Of a stretch of DNA of 64,000 bases, positions 1,247-41,694 are shown one piece after another. Source of the stretch: Phycisphaerales bacterium. GTDB taxonomy: Bacteria > Planctomycetota > Phycisphaerae > Tepidisphaerales > Tepidisphaeraceae. The notes beneath the pieces were generated by a model. It searched no databases and had not been told where the DNA came from. It saw only the letters and a list, made by a program, of their open reading frames with translations. Every line of letters starts with the position of its first letter. Within the stretch, counting starts at the first letter, position 1. The position numbers and the translations under genes were made by a program. The stretch is taken from positions 1 through 64,000 of the forward strand of contig JANYKD010000055.1 in the NCBI GenBank assembly GCA_025361735.1, given 5' to 3'.

Positions 1247-1395
1247 GGTGTAGATTCTGCGCGCGGGGGTGGGGAAAGCAAGGGGAGATGGCAAATGCAG
1301 AGTGGAAGGAGGACGGTGAGTGAAATGGTATTCGGGGGGAATGGAGCGGACCGCGATCGGCGATCGCGGCTACAGTTGAAGTGAACCGTATTGGC

Positions 1396-1474
1396 CCTTA
1401 CCCCAACCCTCTCCCGGAGGGAGAGGGAGCAGGAGGAGCGCGGAGTCGTTCTTGCGAGACTGTTTAGCGCGGGC
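1396..1474 (+). repeat. Dispersed repeat family B, short form (ccccaaccctctcccggagggagagggagcaggaggagcgcggagtcgttcttgcg...)
   Basis: Near-identical copies at 1958-2030 and 18154-18222. Confidence 0.85.
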
Positions 1475-1877: not shown

Positions 1878-1920
1878 ACCCTCACCCCAGCCCTCTCCCG
1901 GAGTACCGGGCGAGGGAGTG
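1878..1920 (+). repeat. Dispersed repeat family B, long form (accctcaccccagccctctcccggagtaccgggcgaggga)
   Basis: Matches reverse complement of 40671-40712. Confidence 0.8.
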
Positions 1921-18153: not shown

Positions 18154-18222
18154 CCCTCGCCCCAACCCTCTCCCGGAGGGAGAGGGAGCAGGAGGAGCGC
18201 GGAATTGTTCTTGCGCGACCAC
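18154..18222 (+). repeat. Dispersed repeat family B, short form
   Basis: ccccaaccctctcccggagggagagggagcaggaggagcgcggaattgttcttgcg. Confidence 0.85.
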
Positions 18223-35971: not shown

Positions 35972-37981
35972 ATGCGTACTCCCGTGTCGAGAATTGGCGT
36001 ATTCATTTGTCATTGCGGCGAAAACATCGGAAAGACGGTCGACTGTCCGCGCGTTTCCGAGGCGGCCAGGCTGATGCCGGGCGTCGCGTATGCGGTGGAC
36101 TACCGCTACACGTGCTCGGAGCCGGGGCAGGCGCAGATTCGCGAGGCGATCACCAAGCACAATCTGACGGGCGTGGTGGTGGGCGCCTGCTCGCCGCGCA
36201 TGCACGAGAAGACCTTCCGCAAGACGGTGGCGGCGGCCGGGCTCAACCCGTACCTCTGCGAGATCGCCAACCTGCGCGAGCAGTGCTCGTGGGTTCACAC
36301 TGACCGTGAGAAGGCGACCGAGAAGGCAATCCAGATCGTGCATTCGATGGTCGAGCGCGTGTCGCGCAACGTGCCGCTCAGCGCCATCAAGGTTCCACTG
36401 ACCCGCCGGGCCGTGGTCATCGGCGGCGGCATCGCGGGCATCCAGGCCGCGCTGGACATCGCCGAGGGCGGCGTGCAAGTGGTCCTCGTCGAGCGTTCGC
36501 CGTCGCTGGGCGGGCACATGTCGCAGTTGTCCGAGACGTTCCCGACGCTCGATTGCTCGCAGTGCATCCTGACGCCGCGAATGGTGGAAGCGGCGACGCA
36601 TCCGAATATCCGCCTGGAAACGTATAGCGAAGTGGAATCGGTCAGCGGCTACGTCGGCAATTTTGAGGTGAAGATCCGCCGCAAGGCTCGCAGTATCGAC
36701 TGGAGCAAATGCACCGGTTGTGGGACCTGCTGGCAGAAGTGCCCGCAGAAGAAGCTGGCGAGCGAGTTTGACGAGGGGCTGGCCAGGCGAACGGCGATCG
36801 GCATTCCGTTCCCGCAGGCCGTGCCGAACAAGCCGGTGATCGACCGGGCCAACTGTACGAAATTCAAAACGGGCAAGTGCGGCGTGTGCGCCAAGCTCTG
36901 TCCGACGGGCGCGATTATTTACGATCAGGAAGATGAGATCATCACGGAGAAGGCCGGCGCGGTCGTCGTGGCGACGGGATTCCAGGTGCTCGGGAAGGAA
37001 CACCTGCCCGCGTATGCCGTTGGCGATGATCCGGATGTGGTGACCGGCCTGCAATTCGAGCGGCTGGCATCGGCGTCCGGTCCGACCGCCGGTGAGATTC
37101 TCCGGCCGTCCGATGGCAAGGCACCGGGGACGATCGTCTTCGTACAGTGTGCCGGTTCGCGCGACGCGGCCAAAGGCCGGGCGTATTGCAGCAAGATCTG
37201 CTGCATGTACACCGCCAAGCACGCGATGCTCTACCGGCACAAGGTGCATGGCGGCCGGGCGTTTGTGCTGTGCATGGACGTCCGCACCCCGGGCAAGGGC
37301 TACGACGAGTTCTATCGTCGGGCGACCGAAGTCGACGGCGTGCAGTACATCCGCTCGCGGGTGGCTCGTATCTATCGCGACAACGGACAACTGGTCGTGC
37401 AGGTGGCCGACACGCTGAATGGCGGCGAGCGGATTGATATTCGCGCGGACATGGTCGTGCTGGGAACGGCCGCCATTCCGCAGCCGGATGTGCGGGCGAT
37501 GGCGCAGAAGCTGGGCATCGGCTATGACGCCGACGGTTGGCTGAGCGAGGCTCACCCCAAACTGCGGCCGGTGGAGACGAACACCGCCGGCGTGTACCTG
37601 GCCGGTGCCTGCCAGGGACCGAAGGACATTCCCGAATCCGTTGCCCAGGCGTCGGCCGTTGCGGCCAAGGTGCTGGGCCTGTTCGCGGCGACCGAACTGA
37701 GTCGCGATCCCGTGGTGGCAAAGGTCAATCGCTGTGCCCCGCCGCTGTTCTCGACATGCATCGGCTGTTTCACGTGCGCCGCGGCCTGTCCGTACAAGGC
37801 AATCGAGCGCGATGAAATCCGCGATCGCAAGGGCAACGTGATCAAGACGGTTGCAAAAGTGAATTCCGGATTGTGCCAGGGATGCGGAACATGTGTGTCG
37901 CTGTGCCGGAGCAAGTCGATTGATCTGGACGGTTTCACGGATGAGCAGATGCTGGCGGCACTGGCGGTGTTGGCGGAATAG
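35972..37981 (+). CDS. hdrA: HdrA-like FAD/Fe-S electron-bifurcating subunit
   Basis: VGVFICHCGENIG-type N-term; AVVIGGGIAGIQAALDIAEGG; CTGCGTCWQKCPQKK; CIGCFTCAAACPYKAIERDE; CQGCGTCVSLCRSKSID. Reading starts at 35972, not at the ORF-track start 35522. Confidence 0.92.
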   Translation: MRTPVSRIGVFICHCGENIGKTVDCPRVSEAARLMPGVAYAVDYRYTCSEPGQAQIREAITKHNLTGVVVGACSPRMHEKTFRKTVAAAGLNPYLCEIANLREQCSWVHTDREKATEKAIQIVHSMVERVSRNVPLSAIKVPLTRRAVVIGGGIAGIQAALDIAEGGVQVVLVERSPSLGGHMSQLSETFPTLDCSQCILTPRMVEAATHPNIRLETYSEVESVSGYVGNFEVKIRRKARSIDWSKCTGCGTCWQKCPQKKLASEFDEGLARRTAIGIPFPQAVPNKPVIDRANCTKFKTGKCGVCAKLCPTGAIIYDQEDEIITEKAGAVVVATGFQVLGKEHLPAYAVGDDPDVVTGLQFERLASASGPTAGEILRPSDGKAPGTIVFVQCAGSRDAAKGRAYCSKICCMYTAKHAMLYRHKVHGGRAFVLCMDVRTPGKGYDEFYRRATEVDGVQYIRSRVARIYRDNGQLVVQVADTLNGGERIDIRADMVVLGTAAIPQPDVRAMAQKLGIGYDADGWLSEAHPKLRPVETNTAGVYLAGACQGPKDIPESVAQASAVAAKVLGLFAATELSRDPVVAKVNRCAPPLFSTCIGCFTCAAACPYKAIERDEIRDRKGNVIKTVAKVNSGLCQGCGTCVSLCRSKSIDLDGFTDEQMLAALAVLAE

Positions 37982-37992
37982 GCCATGTTTTT

Positions 37993-38115
37993 TGTGGCAC
38001 GGGCTTCCAGCCCGTGTGCCGCGACAATCCGCGGCATCAGCCATTCGGTTCGCTTGGCGCATCGCCATGAATGTGTCGGAGTACCGACACAATGGGCTGG
38101 AAGCCCATTCCACGA
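37993..38115. repeat. Intergenic hairpin element between hdrA and flxD-like gene
   Basis: gcacgggcttccagcccgtgtgc and aatgggctggaagcccatt hairpins; shares gaatgtgtcggagtaccgac (38069-38088) with 21573-21592. Confidence 0.8.
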
Positions 38116-38153
38116 TAAACAGTCGCACCCAAGCGATCCAAACGAGGATGAAG

Positions 38154-39524
38154 ATGACCGAAACTATAAAATCTGACCCTGCCACCACCTCGAACACCTC
38201 CGTGTTCGAGCCGAAGATCGTGGCGTTTGTCTGCAAGTGGTGTACGTATGCCGGCGCAGATCTGGCGGGCACGAGCCGCCAGGTGTATCCGTCAAACGTG
38301 CGGGCGCTGATGCTGCCCTGCACGGGGCGGATCGATGTGACGTTCGTGCTGCGGGCGTTTCTCCAGGGCGCCGATGGCGTGATCGTCAGCGGCTGCCATC
38401 CGGGCGACTGTCACTACACGGCCGGTAATTTCCGGGCACGGCGGCGGTGGATTCTCTTCCGCGATCTGCTGGATACACTTGGCGTGGACCTGCGCCGGGT
38501 CGAGATGGCGTGGATCTCCGCGGCGGAGGGCACCAAGTGGGTCAAGACAATCACGACGTTTACCGACCAGATCCGCGAGCTCGGGCCGTATGAGCCTATG
38601 CACAAGGTAGCCGAGGACCGCTCGCCGGACACGATTCTGCCGGTAGATCTGGCGTTGTCGTACTATTCCGGCGGCGAGAACCCGATCAGCGCCGTTGATC
38701 CGAAACTGCAGGAGGCGGTCGGCGAGGCGATGGCGGCGGGCAAGGTCAAGGTCGTCGTCGGCTGGGTGCGGAACACGACGCTGTCCAGGCCACGTCCAGT
38801 CTGGGTCGCCAGTGCCGAAGCGGCGAAGTTCCTGACTCAGCCCGGGGACAGTGGCAATCTGGCGCGGATGATCAAGAACCCGCAACTTCGCCCCGTGGGT
38901 CCGATCGGCATTGTCGCGCGCACGACGGAGATGATGGCGCTCAATGTGCTGATCCAGGAAGCACAGCTTGATCCGGCGAACGTAGTGATTTTTGCGGTCA
39001 TGCCTGACGGCAAGTTCCTGGGCACGATGGATATGGCCCAGGTGGCGGCGCTGATCGGTGAACAGGTCAAGAACGTGCCGGCCGACCAGCCGGCGGGATT
39101 CTCTCCTGAGACGCACAAGTTGCTGGACGAACTGATGGCCAAGACGCCGGCGGAGCGCTGGCAATTCTGGGCCGAGCAGTCGGCCAAGTGCATCCGCTGC
39201 TATGCGTGTCGTGGTTCATGCCCGATGTGCAACTGCGAACAGTGCTTTGCCGAGAAGAACCAGCCGCAGTGGTTTCCGACGGCGGCCGACGGACCCGGCA
39301 ATTTCGCGTGGCAGGCGTTCCGGGCGTTCCATCTGGCCGGGCGGTGCGTTGGTTGTGGCGCGTGCCAGGACGCATGTCCGGCGGGAATCCCGCTGAACGT
39401 ACTGGGCGCGGCCATGGCGCGATCCTCGCTGAAACACTTCGGCCACCGGGCCGGGGTGGATCCCAAGGCGGTGCCGCTGCAGTCGGACTTCCGGCCGGAT
39501 GACAAGGAATCGTTCATACTCTAG
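38154..39524 (+). CDS. Fusion of MvhD/FlxD-like iron-sulfur domain with FlxC-like 4Fe-4S domain
   Basis: N-term CKWCTYAGADLAGTSRQVYPSNVRALMLPCTGRID...VSGCHPGDCHYTAGN (MvhD); C-term CIRCYACRGSCPMCNCEQC and CVGCGACQDACPAGIPLN. Confidence 0.8.
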   Translation: MTETIKSDPATTSNTSVFEPKIVAFVCKWCTYAGADLAGTSRQVYPSNVRALMLPCTGRIDVTFVLRAFLQGADGVIVSGCHPGDCHYTAGNFRARRRWILFRDLLDTLGVDLRRVEMAWISAAEGTKWVKTITTFTDQIRELGPYEPMHKVAEDRSPDTILPVDLALSYYSGGENPISAVDPKLQEAVGEAMAAGKVKVVVGWVRNTTLSRPRPVWVASAEAAKFLTQPGDSGNLARMIKNPQLRPVGPIGIVARTTEMMALNVLIQEAQLDPANVVIFAVMPDGKFLGTMDMAQVAALIGEQVKNVPADQPAGFSPETHKLLDELMAKTPAERWQFWAEQSAKCIRCYACRGSCPMCNCEQCFAEKNQPQWFPTAADGPGNFAWQAFRAFHLAGRCVGCGACQDACPAGIPLNVLGAAMARSSLKHFGHRAGVDPKAVPLQSDFRPDDKESFIL

Positions 39525-39530
39525 TGGCGT

Positions 39531-39583
39531 AGTGCAGGCTTGAGCCTGCATGCGCAAGTGAGAAGCAGGCGCGAGCCTGCACT
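39531..39583. repeat. Double hairpin gcaggcttgagcctgc / gcaggcgcgagcctgc between the two flx-like genes
   Basis: Hairpins at 39534-39549 and 39565-39580. Confidence 0.85.
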
Positions 39584-39588
39584 ACAAG

Positions 39589-41694
39589 ATGAGCAATGCA
39601 ATGGTAAGCATATCTGAAACTGTGACGACGGTGGAGCGGGTGGTCATATCGCGCCAAGTCGTGGAACAATGGCCGGGTGCGTTGATGGCGGCCGGACATC
39701 ATGTGGTGGCGCCGGTCACGGTCGACGGGAGCGTCGAGTACCGCGGGCTGAGCAAGGAGAAGCCGGCCGCGACGGGCTTTGGCACGGGCCTGCCGCGCAT
39801 GAGTCCCAAGGGCGCGTGGTTTCCCCGGACCGAAACAGTGCTGCGCGTCCATCGCAAAGATGGGCAGCAGTGGACCATCAATGATCCCAAAAATGAATTC
39901 CCCTCGGTGGTGATCTTCGGCGCCCGGCCGTGCGATGCTGCCGCACCGGAAATCCTCGCCCCGCTCTTCGGCTGGGATTTCCATGATGCCTTCTTTGAGG
40001 AGCGGCTGAAGAAGATCGCCTTCGTGGTGCTGGCGTGCAAGTCCGCGGTCGATGCGGCCTGCTTCTGCACGTCGGTCGGCATCGATCCGGCCGGTAAAGG
40101 CGCCGGCGATGTCGTGCTGAGCGAACTGGAATATGGCAGCTATCTGGCCGAGGCACGCACAGAAGTCGGCAGGCAACTGCTGGCGGCGATTCCCGATGCC
40201 CAGCGCAAAACCGTGGGCGAAGCACCCGCGGGACTTGAGGCACAGCGGGAGAAGACGCGACAGAGTATCGCCAAGAAATTCGATCCCGCGCTGGTACGGA
40301 CGGCGCTCACCAAGCGCTTCACCGACCCCATGTGGCAACAGGCGGCCCAGTCGTGTCTGGCCTGCGGCACCTGTGCGTTCGTCTGTCCGACGTGCCATTG
40401 CTTTGACCTGCAGGATGAGATGACCGGCAAGAACGGCATCCGCCAGAAGAACTGGGACGCCTGTGCGTTCCCGCTGTTCACGATGCACACGTCCGGCCAC
40501 AACCCGCGGCCCGACCAGCCCAGCCGCTGGCGCCAGCGGCTGAGCCACAAGTTCCGTTACTATCCCGAGAAATTCGGCCATGTCCTCTGCACCGGCTGCG
40601 GCCGCTGCATCCGCCTCTGCCCGGCCGGCATGGACCTGCTGGCGGATTTGCAGGAGCTGTCCAAAATACCTCCCTCGCCCGGTACGCCGGGAGAGGGCCG
40701 GGGTGAGGGTGCAACCACCCTGTTTACGCCGGTTGATGGCCTCGGTCCCGTCGCCGGCATTCTTGCGAAGACGGCCGAAGCATCGTCGAATATCTATCGC
40801 CCGTATCTGATGCGGGTGGCCATGATCCGCGACGAAACGCCCGATGTGCGCACGCTGCGTCTGGAATTCGCCGACCCCAAGGAAGCCGAAACGTTTGACT
40901 TCCGCGTGGGCCAGTTCGGGCTCTACAACGCCATGGGCGAAGGCGAAAGCACGTTCTGCATCGCCAGCAGTTCGACCCGCAAGGGATACATCGAATGCAC
41001 CTTCCGCCAGGCCGGCCGGGTGACACGGGCCCTGCGCCGCCTGGGCGTGGGCGACAGTGTCGGCTTCCGCGGCCCCTACGGCAACAGTTTCCCCGTGGAA
41101 AGCTGGAAGGGCAAAGACCTGCTGTTCGTGGCCGGCGGCATCGCGCTGCCGCCGATGCGCAGCGTCATCCAGTATTGCCTGGACAACCGCCAGGACTATG
41201 GCGACATCACCATCGTCTACGGCGCCCGCACCTGGGCAGACCATGTGTACAAGGATGAACTGGCCGAGTGGGAAGCCCGGCCGGATGTGAAACTCTGGCT
41301 GTGCATCGACTGGAAAGCCGGCGCCGGCGGGCTGGTCGAAGAATCCGCGATGGAGGGCTGGCGGCCGCTGAACATGAAGAATCCCGGCGCGAGCACGCTC
41401 GATCCGAGCCACCGCCGCTATACGGGATTCGTGCCGCAGCTTGTCGAGGCGGCCAATCCGTCCCCGAATAATCGCATTGCCATCCTCTGCGGCCCGCCCA
41501 TCATGATCAAGTTCACGCTGGCGAGCCTCAAGAAGCTCGGCTACGAGAGCGAGAACGTGTTCACGACGCTCGAAAACCGCATGAAGTGCGGCCTGGGCAA
41601 GTGCGGCCGCTGTAACGTGGGCCCGATCTACGTCTGCAAAGAAGGCCCGGTGTTCACCGCCAAACAAATGGAGATGCTGCCGCCGGAGTTGTAG
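39589..41694 (+). CDS. Fusion of 4Fe-4S dicluster (FlxB/AsrA-like) and FAD/NAD(P)-binding (FlxA/AsrB-like) domains
   Basis: C-x2-C clusters SCLACGTCAFVCPTCHCFD and CTGCGRCIRLCPAGMD; then PYLMRVAMIRDETPDVRTLRLEF, GRVTRALRRLGVGDSVGFRGPYGNSFPVE, MKCGLGKCGRCNVG (2Fe-2S). Confidence 0.85.
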   Translation: MSNAMVSISETVTTVERVVISRQVVEQWPGALMAAGHHVVAPVTVDGSVEYRGLSKEKPAATGFGTGLPRMSPKGAWFPRTETVLRVHRKDGQQWTINDPKNEFPSVVIFGARPCDAAAPEILAPLFGWDFHDAFFEERLKKIAFVVLACKSAVDAACFCTSVGIDPAGKGAGDVVLSELEYGSYLAEARTEVGRQLLAAIPDAQRKTVGEAPAGLEAQREKTRQSIAKKFDPALVRTALTKRFTDPMWQQAAQSCLACGTCAFVCPTCHCFDLQDEMTGKNGIRQKNWDACAFPLFTMHTSGHNPRPDQPSRWRQRLSHKFRYYPEKFGHVLCTGCGRCIRLCPAGMDLLADLQELSKIPPSPGTPGEGRGEGATTLFTPVDGLGPVAGILAKTAEASSNIYRPYLMRVAMIRDETPDVRTLRLEFADPKEAETFDFRVGQFGLYNAMGEGESTFCIASSSTRKGYIECTFRQAGRVTRALRRLGVGDSVGFRGPYGNSFPVESWKGKDLLFVAGGIALPPMRSVIQYCLDNRQDYGDITIVYGARTWADHVYKDELAEWEARPDVKLWLCIDWKAGAGGLVEESAMEGWRPLNMKNPGASTLDPSHRRYTGFVPQLVEAANPSPNNRIAILCGPPIMIKFTLASLKKLGYESENVFTTLENRMKCGLGKCGRCNVGPIYVCKEGPVFTAKQMEMLPPEL
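40671..40712 (-). repeat. Family B repeat (long form) embedded in frame inside the flxBA-like CDS
   Basis: tccctcgcccggtacgccgggagagggccggggtgagggtgc is the reverse complement of the 1878-1920 repeat with few changes; encodes PPSPGTPGEGRGEGA. Confidence 0.85.

Follow-up and report, generated by a model that had tools for sequence, protein, structure and literature searches.

The window analysed here, a stretch of 64,000 nucleotides from the genome of a Phycisphaerales bacterium, carries on its plus strand a gene for a 701-aa fused oxidoreductase (39589..41694), assigned by profiles and by its structure relatives. According to Pfam and NCBIfam, the N-terminal half corresponds to sulfhydrogenase beta/AsrA, with a Fer4_22 4Fe-4S dicluster domain at residues 255-347 (40351..40629), and the C-terminal half to sulfhydrogenase gamma/AsrB, with an FAD/NAD-binding plus [2Fe-2S] module (profile match DHODB_Fe-S_bind; 40789..41673). 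The beta and gamma subunits of sulfhydrogenase 1 (PDB 9nez, chains B and C) match the two halves, but are separate chains there and a single fused chain here. Of the 'Flx-like fusion' announced in the original prediction, the fusion thus stands, whereas 'Flx-like' is a loose label for halves that are HydB/AsrA-HydG/AsrB-like by profile. Between them lies an interdomain linker (residues ~356-400; 40654..40788) that varies among fused orthologues in the alignment; AlphaFold assigned residues 357-404 a pLDDT of ~25 and no secondary structure, a result that counts little since the whole model was poor (mean 59, seven sequences). The upstream gene (37893..39524, plus strand), whose true start is probably located downstream of 37893, matches profiles for an FlpD/MvhD delta-subunit domain and 4Fe-4S domains (HdrA2-like C-terminus). 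In view of this FlpD/MvhD domain, the fusion is likely part of a Hdr/Flx/hydrogenase-type electron-transfer complex. A further short palindromic repeat (AGGCTTGAGCCTGCATGCGCAAGTGAGAAGCAGGCGCGAGCCTGCACTAC) is present at 39524-39590, directly upstream of the fusion gene.

Inside the linker, a repeat at 40671..40712 (plus strand) is read in frame as residues 361-374 and encodes PPSPGTPGEGRGEG, located after Fer4_22 and before residue ~401, and hence between the 4Fe-4S and FAD/NAD modules as originally proposed. Its layout is CCCTCGCCC-GGTACGCC-GGGAGAGGG-CCG-GGGTGAGGG, with CCCTCGCCC, GGGAGAGGG and GGGTGAGGG as stems and GGTACGCC and CCG as loops. The segment is the reverse complement of a repeat at 1878..1920 (minus strand), the two being identical at 39 of the 42 bases of a common block (40670-40711 versus 1877-1918), so that strand and coordinates had been given correctly. 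The 1878 copy, in which the shared 40-bp core is embedded in a longer F1-type repeat with conserved flanks, had been described as a free intergenic element, and by ORF and GC3 context it does sit between two genes; the one adjoining this gap on the minus strand we take, by eye, to be GreA-like. Overlooked before were two minus-strand copies with a shorter core and one mismatch, detected by the core search at 1395..1430 (intergenic) and at 18154..18189 (with F2-type flanks), as well as a partial copy at ~1964.

Judged by its sequence, the window repeat is a known one, the G/C-rich intrastrand triplex motif (TM) described by Holder et al. 2015 (PMC4666352). The TM pattern (CCCTCNCCC - loop - GGGNGAGGG - 2-3 nt - GGGNGAGGG) fits exactly at 40672-40709, and pattern sites amount to three in the window and 45 distinct ones among the loci examined in its genome. 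In the three stems and in the second loop, CCG, the window copy is identical to TM_ECO no. 10 of E. coli, whereas its first loop, 8 nt in length, is unlike that of TM_ECO. High copy number is common to the motif of Holder et al. and the repeat in the window's genome, and inverted pairs occur in some relatives. The window 42-mer itself matches 3,353 of 5,426 complete E. coli genomes in blastn searches; among the matches listed, 15/15 fall under no annotated feature, one of them between rhaD and rhaA. TM in E. coli K-12 is reported to be always intergenic (PMC4666352), which is a property of that strain and outside the definition of the motif. The window's genome differs in this respect, as at least nine copies are found there inside real genes.

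With a 21-base core and up to two mismatches allowed, 59 copies (24 forward, 35 reverse) were counted in the 7.5 Mb genome, whose assembly comprises 571 contigs and is 6% contaminated. Reversing the pattern gave 0 matches, so the repeat is not a chance occurrence, and its copy number is far above the two copies that had been noted originally. The core of 35-40 bp occurs either bare or within two longer repeats with conserved flanks (F1 and F2). In-gene candidates were selected as long frames spanning a copy and then compared with homologues; as this search covered the surroundings of the 59 core matches, in-gene copies that have degenerated further may have escaped it.

This comparison confirmed nine insertions in seven genes, namely the fusion, UvrA, GcvP (two copies), HydE, AddB, a DsbH-type protein and an HZS-alpha/FGE protein (two copies). 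In UvrA (L123), the repeat is read in the frame used in the fusion and encodes SPSPGTPGEGRGEG, at a site occupied by a short turn in most family genomes and by unrelated longer segments in two; such segments in a few relatives (L161, L163, L165) suggest that the site tolerates insertions. Of the two copies in GcvP (L124), one is located in a variable loop and the other between the regions that correspond to subunits 1 and 2 in Thermus, both being absent from solved structures and family orthologues. The repeat of HydE (L130) is a gap in the alignment with the solved maturase, that of AddB (L126) lies between ADDB_N (5-290) and UvrD_C (322-668) and is absent from aligned orthologues, and that of the DsbH-type protein (L128) is absent from 19/19 aligned orthologues. 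Both copies in the HZS-alpha/FGE protein (L125) occupy the linker between its two domains; this protein is subject to a lineage-specific expansion, with 24 matches (E <1e-40) in its own genome, 16 in G016 and 0 in the other 24 family genomes. Two more copies, in L129 and, as the longer F2 form, in L122, are likely in-gene by codon-position GC only. The latter (L122:2590-2720; G000:C24) is framed by imperfect terminal inverted repeats around the core and lies in frame in an ORF of 1370 aa without Pfam domains. A further candidate, L127 (C459), was set aside: although long ORFs run through it on either strand, it probably lies in the intergenic space of a divergent gene pair. Taken together, the in-gene copies are found mostly between domains or in variable loops, and family orthologue alignments revealed no shared insertion sites. 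Among the 11 in-gene copies (nine confirmed and two likely), the frame GEGRGEG is used by five, PHPxPLP by four, and PSPxPSP and LTPxLSR by one each, while none uses the TGA-containing frame. Separately, in other genera of the family the same tolerant loops of UvrA (L163) and GcvP (L135, L139) contain peptides similar to NRKSQIANRKS that look like in-frame translations of a second dispersed repeat.

To place the repeat in the history of the fusion, orthologues were compared. A single-protein query found no fused ones, whereas a profile search of genome contigs with a two-sequence alignment did. Six of them (L114-L119) agree with the window protein in domain order and have a variable linker without the repeat, at identities to that protein of 72% for L114 (in the alignment) and 57-63% for L115-L119; L120, also fused but partial, shares this order and likewise has a variable, repeat-free linker. 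In the MAFFT alignment, 10-14 columns are gapped in the orthologues over the repeat, and the repeat-encoded peptide (PSPGTPGEGRGEG) is found in none of the aligned fused orthologues. The genome of the closest one, L114, has ~36 core matches elsewhere, none of them in its linker; no core match was obtained in the genomes of L115 and L120, three weak ones with two mismatches were obtained in that of L119, and no exact or one-mismatch copy was found in G421, G424 and G425, the genomes of three fused orthologues. In more distant relatives (e.g. G374 and G118), the two modules are encoded by split, adjacent genes. Since the six fused orthologues share the domain order and have repeat-free linkers, the simplest reading of these sequences is that the fusion is older than the repeat, which came later into an existing, length-tolerant linker.

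The original prediction had suggested a bridging or accompanying role of the element in the fusion, and the attractive idea that the repeat made the fusion has to be corrected. In such a scenario, a stop-free repeat between two genes would have bridged them upon loss of the intergenic stop. The exact position at the domain seam, the split, adjacent genes of G374 and G118 and the mostly intergenic location of the repeat in this genome all fit, but six fused orthologues with repeat-free linkers and three of their genomes without close copies speak against it, and seams are also occupied in AddB, GcvP and the HZS/FGE protein, so that tolerance explains the position equally at the seam of the fusion; we regard bridging as very improbable. 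That the linker instead represents an ancestral Pro/Gly-rich peptide resembling the repeat by convergence is hardly credible. Pro/Ala-rich linkers do occur in the fused orthologues, yet none of these carries the same peptide, and the near-identity to the intergenic copy of the same window, with identical triplex stems, leaves convergence little room.

We therefore consider the segment to be a copy of the dispersed, hairpin- and triplex-forming TM that was inserted into a redox subunit after its fusion, in a pre-existing linker tolerant of changes in length, with a probability of roughly 0.88. Identity and copy number of the repeat, its in-frame position, the insert-free orthologues and the order of fusion and insert were established directly; the steps beyond are a proposal. 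The 40-bp core is stop-free in five of six frames, so that an insertion with a net length that is a multiple of three would add ~14 mostly Pro, Gly, Glu and Arg residues. Copies would move as insertions, and selection would act as a filter on those in genes: copies disrupting the fold or the frame would be lost, whereas those in loops or between domains would persist. The process would have occurred at least nine times in seven genes of the window's genome, and the repeat-bearing oxidoreductase would be made and functional. Most of a bacterial genome is coding. That only ~11 of 59 copies reside in genes nevertheless suggests that most in-gene insertions were probably lost or never made. As survivors are mainly those in loops and between domains, such filtering would by itself explain the window copy at the seam.

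A different reason for persistence would be that the triplex or hairpin structure acts in the gene as DNA or RNA, e.g. by slowing transcription or translation at the domain boundary. None of the three predicted triplex stems is disrupted in the in-gene copy, and several in-gene copies coincide with domain boundaries, at which pausing could assist folding. We nonetheless judge such a function very unlikely, as the RNA fold of the in-gene copy is unremarkable given its composition (z -1.3), orthologues do not share the insertion sites, and Holder et al. found no regulatory trend for TM (PMC4666352).

Insertion of TM into a tolerant linker has counterparts among other small repeats. The original prediction had pointed to the palindromic elements of Rickettsia, RPE (Ogata et al. 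2000, as reviewed in PMC2229807), which are 105-146 bp long and occur intergenically as well as in frame within conserved genes, with 19 reading frames cited. The likeness holds for a small dispersed repeat that became an in-frame linker and is tolerated by the protein, and it now extends to nine confirmed copies in seven genes. RPE differ by their length and their alphaproteobacterial hosts from the 35-40 bp core described here, which is read on both strands and in four frames; the comparison is one of features, not of sequence. The lineage is indeed a different one, but in-gene repeats of the GTAG/CGTC-tagged REP type have already been reported from the PVC superphylum, including uvrA of the verrucomicrobium Opitutus terrae, and from recBCD, with loops and linkers proposed as tolerant sites (Di Nocera et al. 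2013, PMC3733652). Tagged REPs resemble TM in being short palindromes in frame within genes including repair genes, here UvrA and AddB. The tag itself was found within 8 nt of TM copies at 7/59 5' ends and 1/59 3' ends versus ~9 expected per end, i.e. not above chance. A RAYT as mover was discarded, as it lacks support from both co-location and copy-number correlation: none of the nine Y1_Tnp (RAYT-type) matches in the window's genome lies on a contig with a TM copy, and over 26 genomes Y1_Tnp and TM copy counts correlated weakly (rho 0.33, p 0.10). Judged by tag, RAYT and RPE length, the TM copies are thus not members of the REPs or RPE, although they act alike. In-frame repeats in genes are already known; what differs is the repeat itself, the triplex motif, for which no report of in-gene copies was found in our literature search of incomplete coverage.

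In-frame repeat insertion, so far known from Rickettsia, Wolbachia and tagged REPs, is thereby extended to the widespread TM, showing that a repeat described from E. coli K-12 as confined to intergenic DNA can be turned into protein sequence. We tentatively suggest that TM might serve in this lineage as a general frame-tolerant linker donor: with five open frames out of six, which encode mainly hydrophilic Pro/Gly/Glu peptides, it would extend loops and interdomain linkers again and again in core enzymes, among them the products of repair genes. If so, TM would be a regular source of protein change in addition to its part in genome rearrangement. The nine natural insertions with repeat-free homologues, among which UvrA, GcvP and HydE have relatives of known structure, offer a set for testing the protein tolerance of repeat-derived peptides and the spread of TM.

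Within the family of the window's organism, TM copies were present in 19/26 genomes, at 1 to 288 each, and across the phylum exact matches were obtained in 28/201 sampled genomes. The complete genome of one relative (G005) contains 56 copies, mostly as inverted pairs, of which only ~1 lies within a convincing gene, so that genera seem to vary in their load of in-gene copies. The inverted pairs of this relative (G005:C1, e.g. 44429/44562 and 2018265/2018384) are mostly ~70-165 bp apart and REPIN-like, an arrangement that is rare in the genome of the window. Elsewhere in the phylum, one genome (G111:C1) has the motif in tandem runs at 569368-570455, with a spacing of ~173 bp, and at 803182-804092, with spacings of 167-281 bp.
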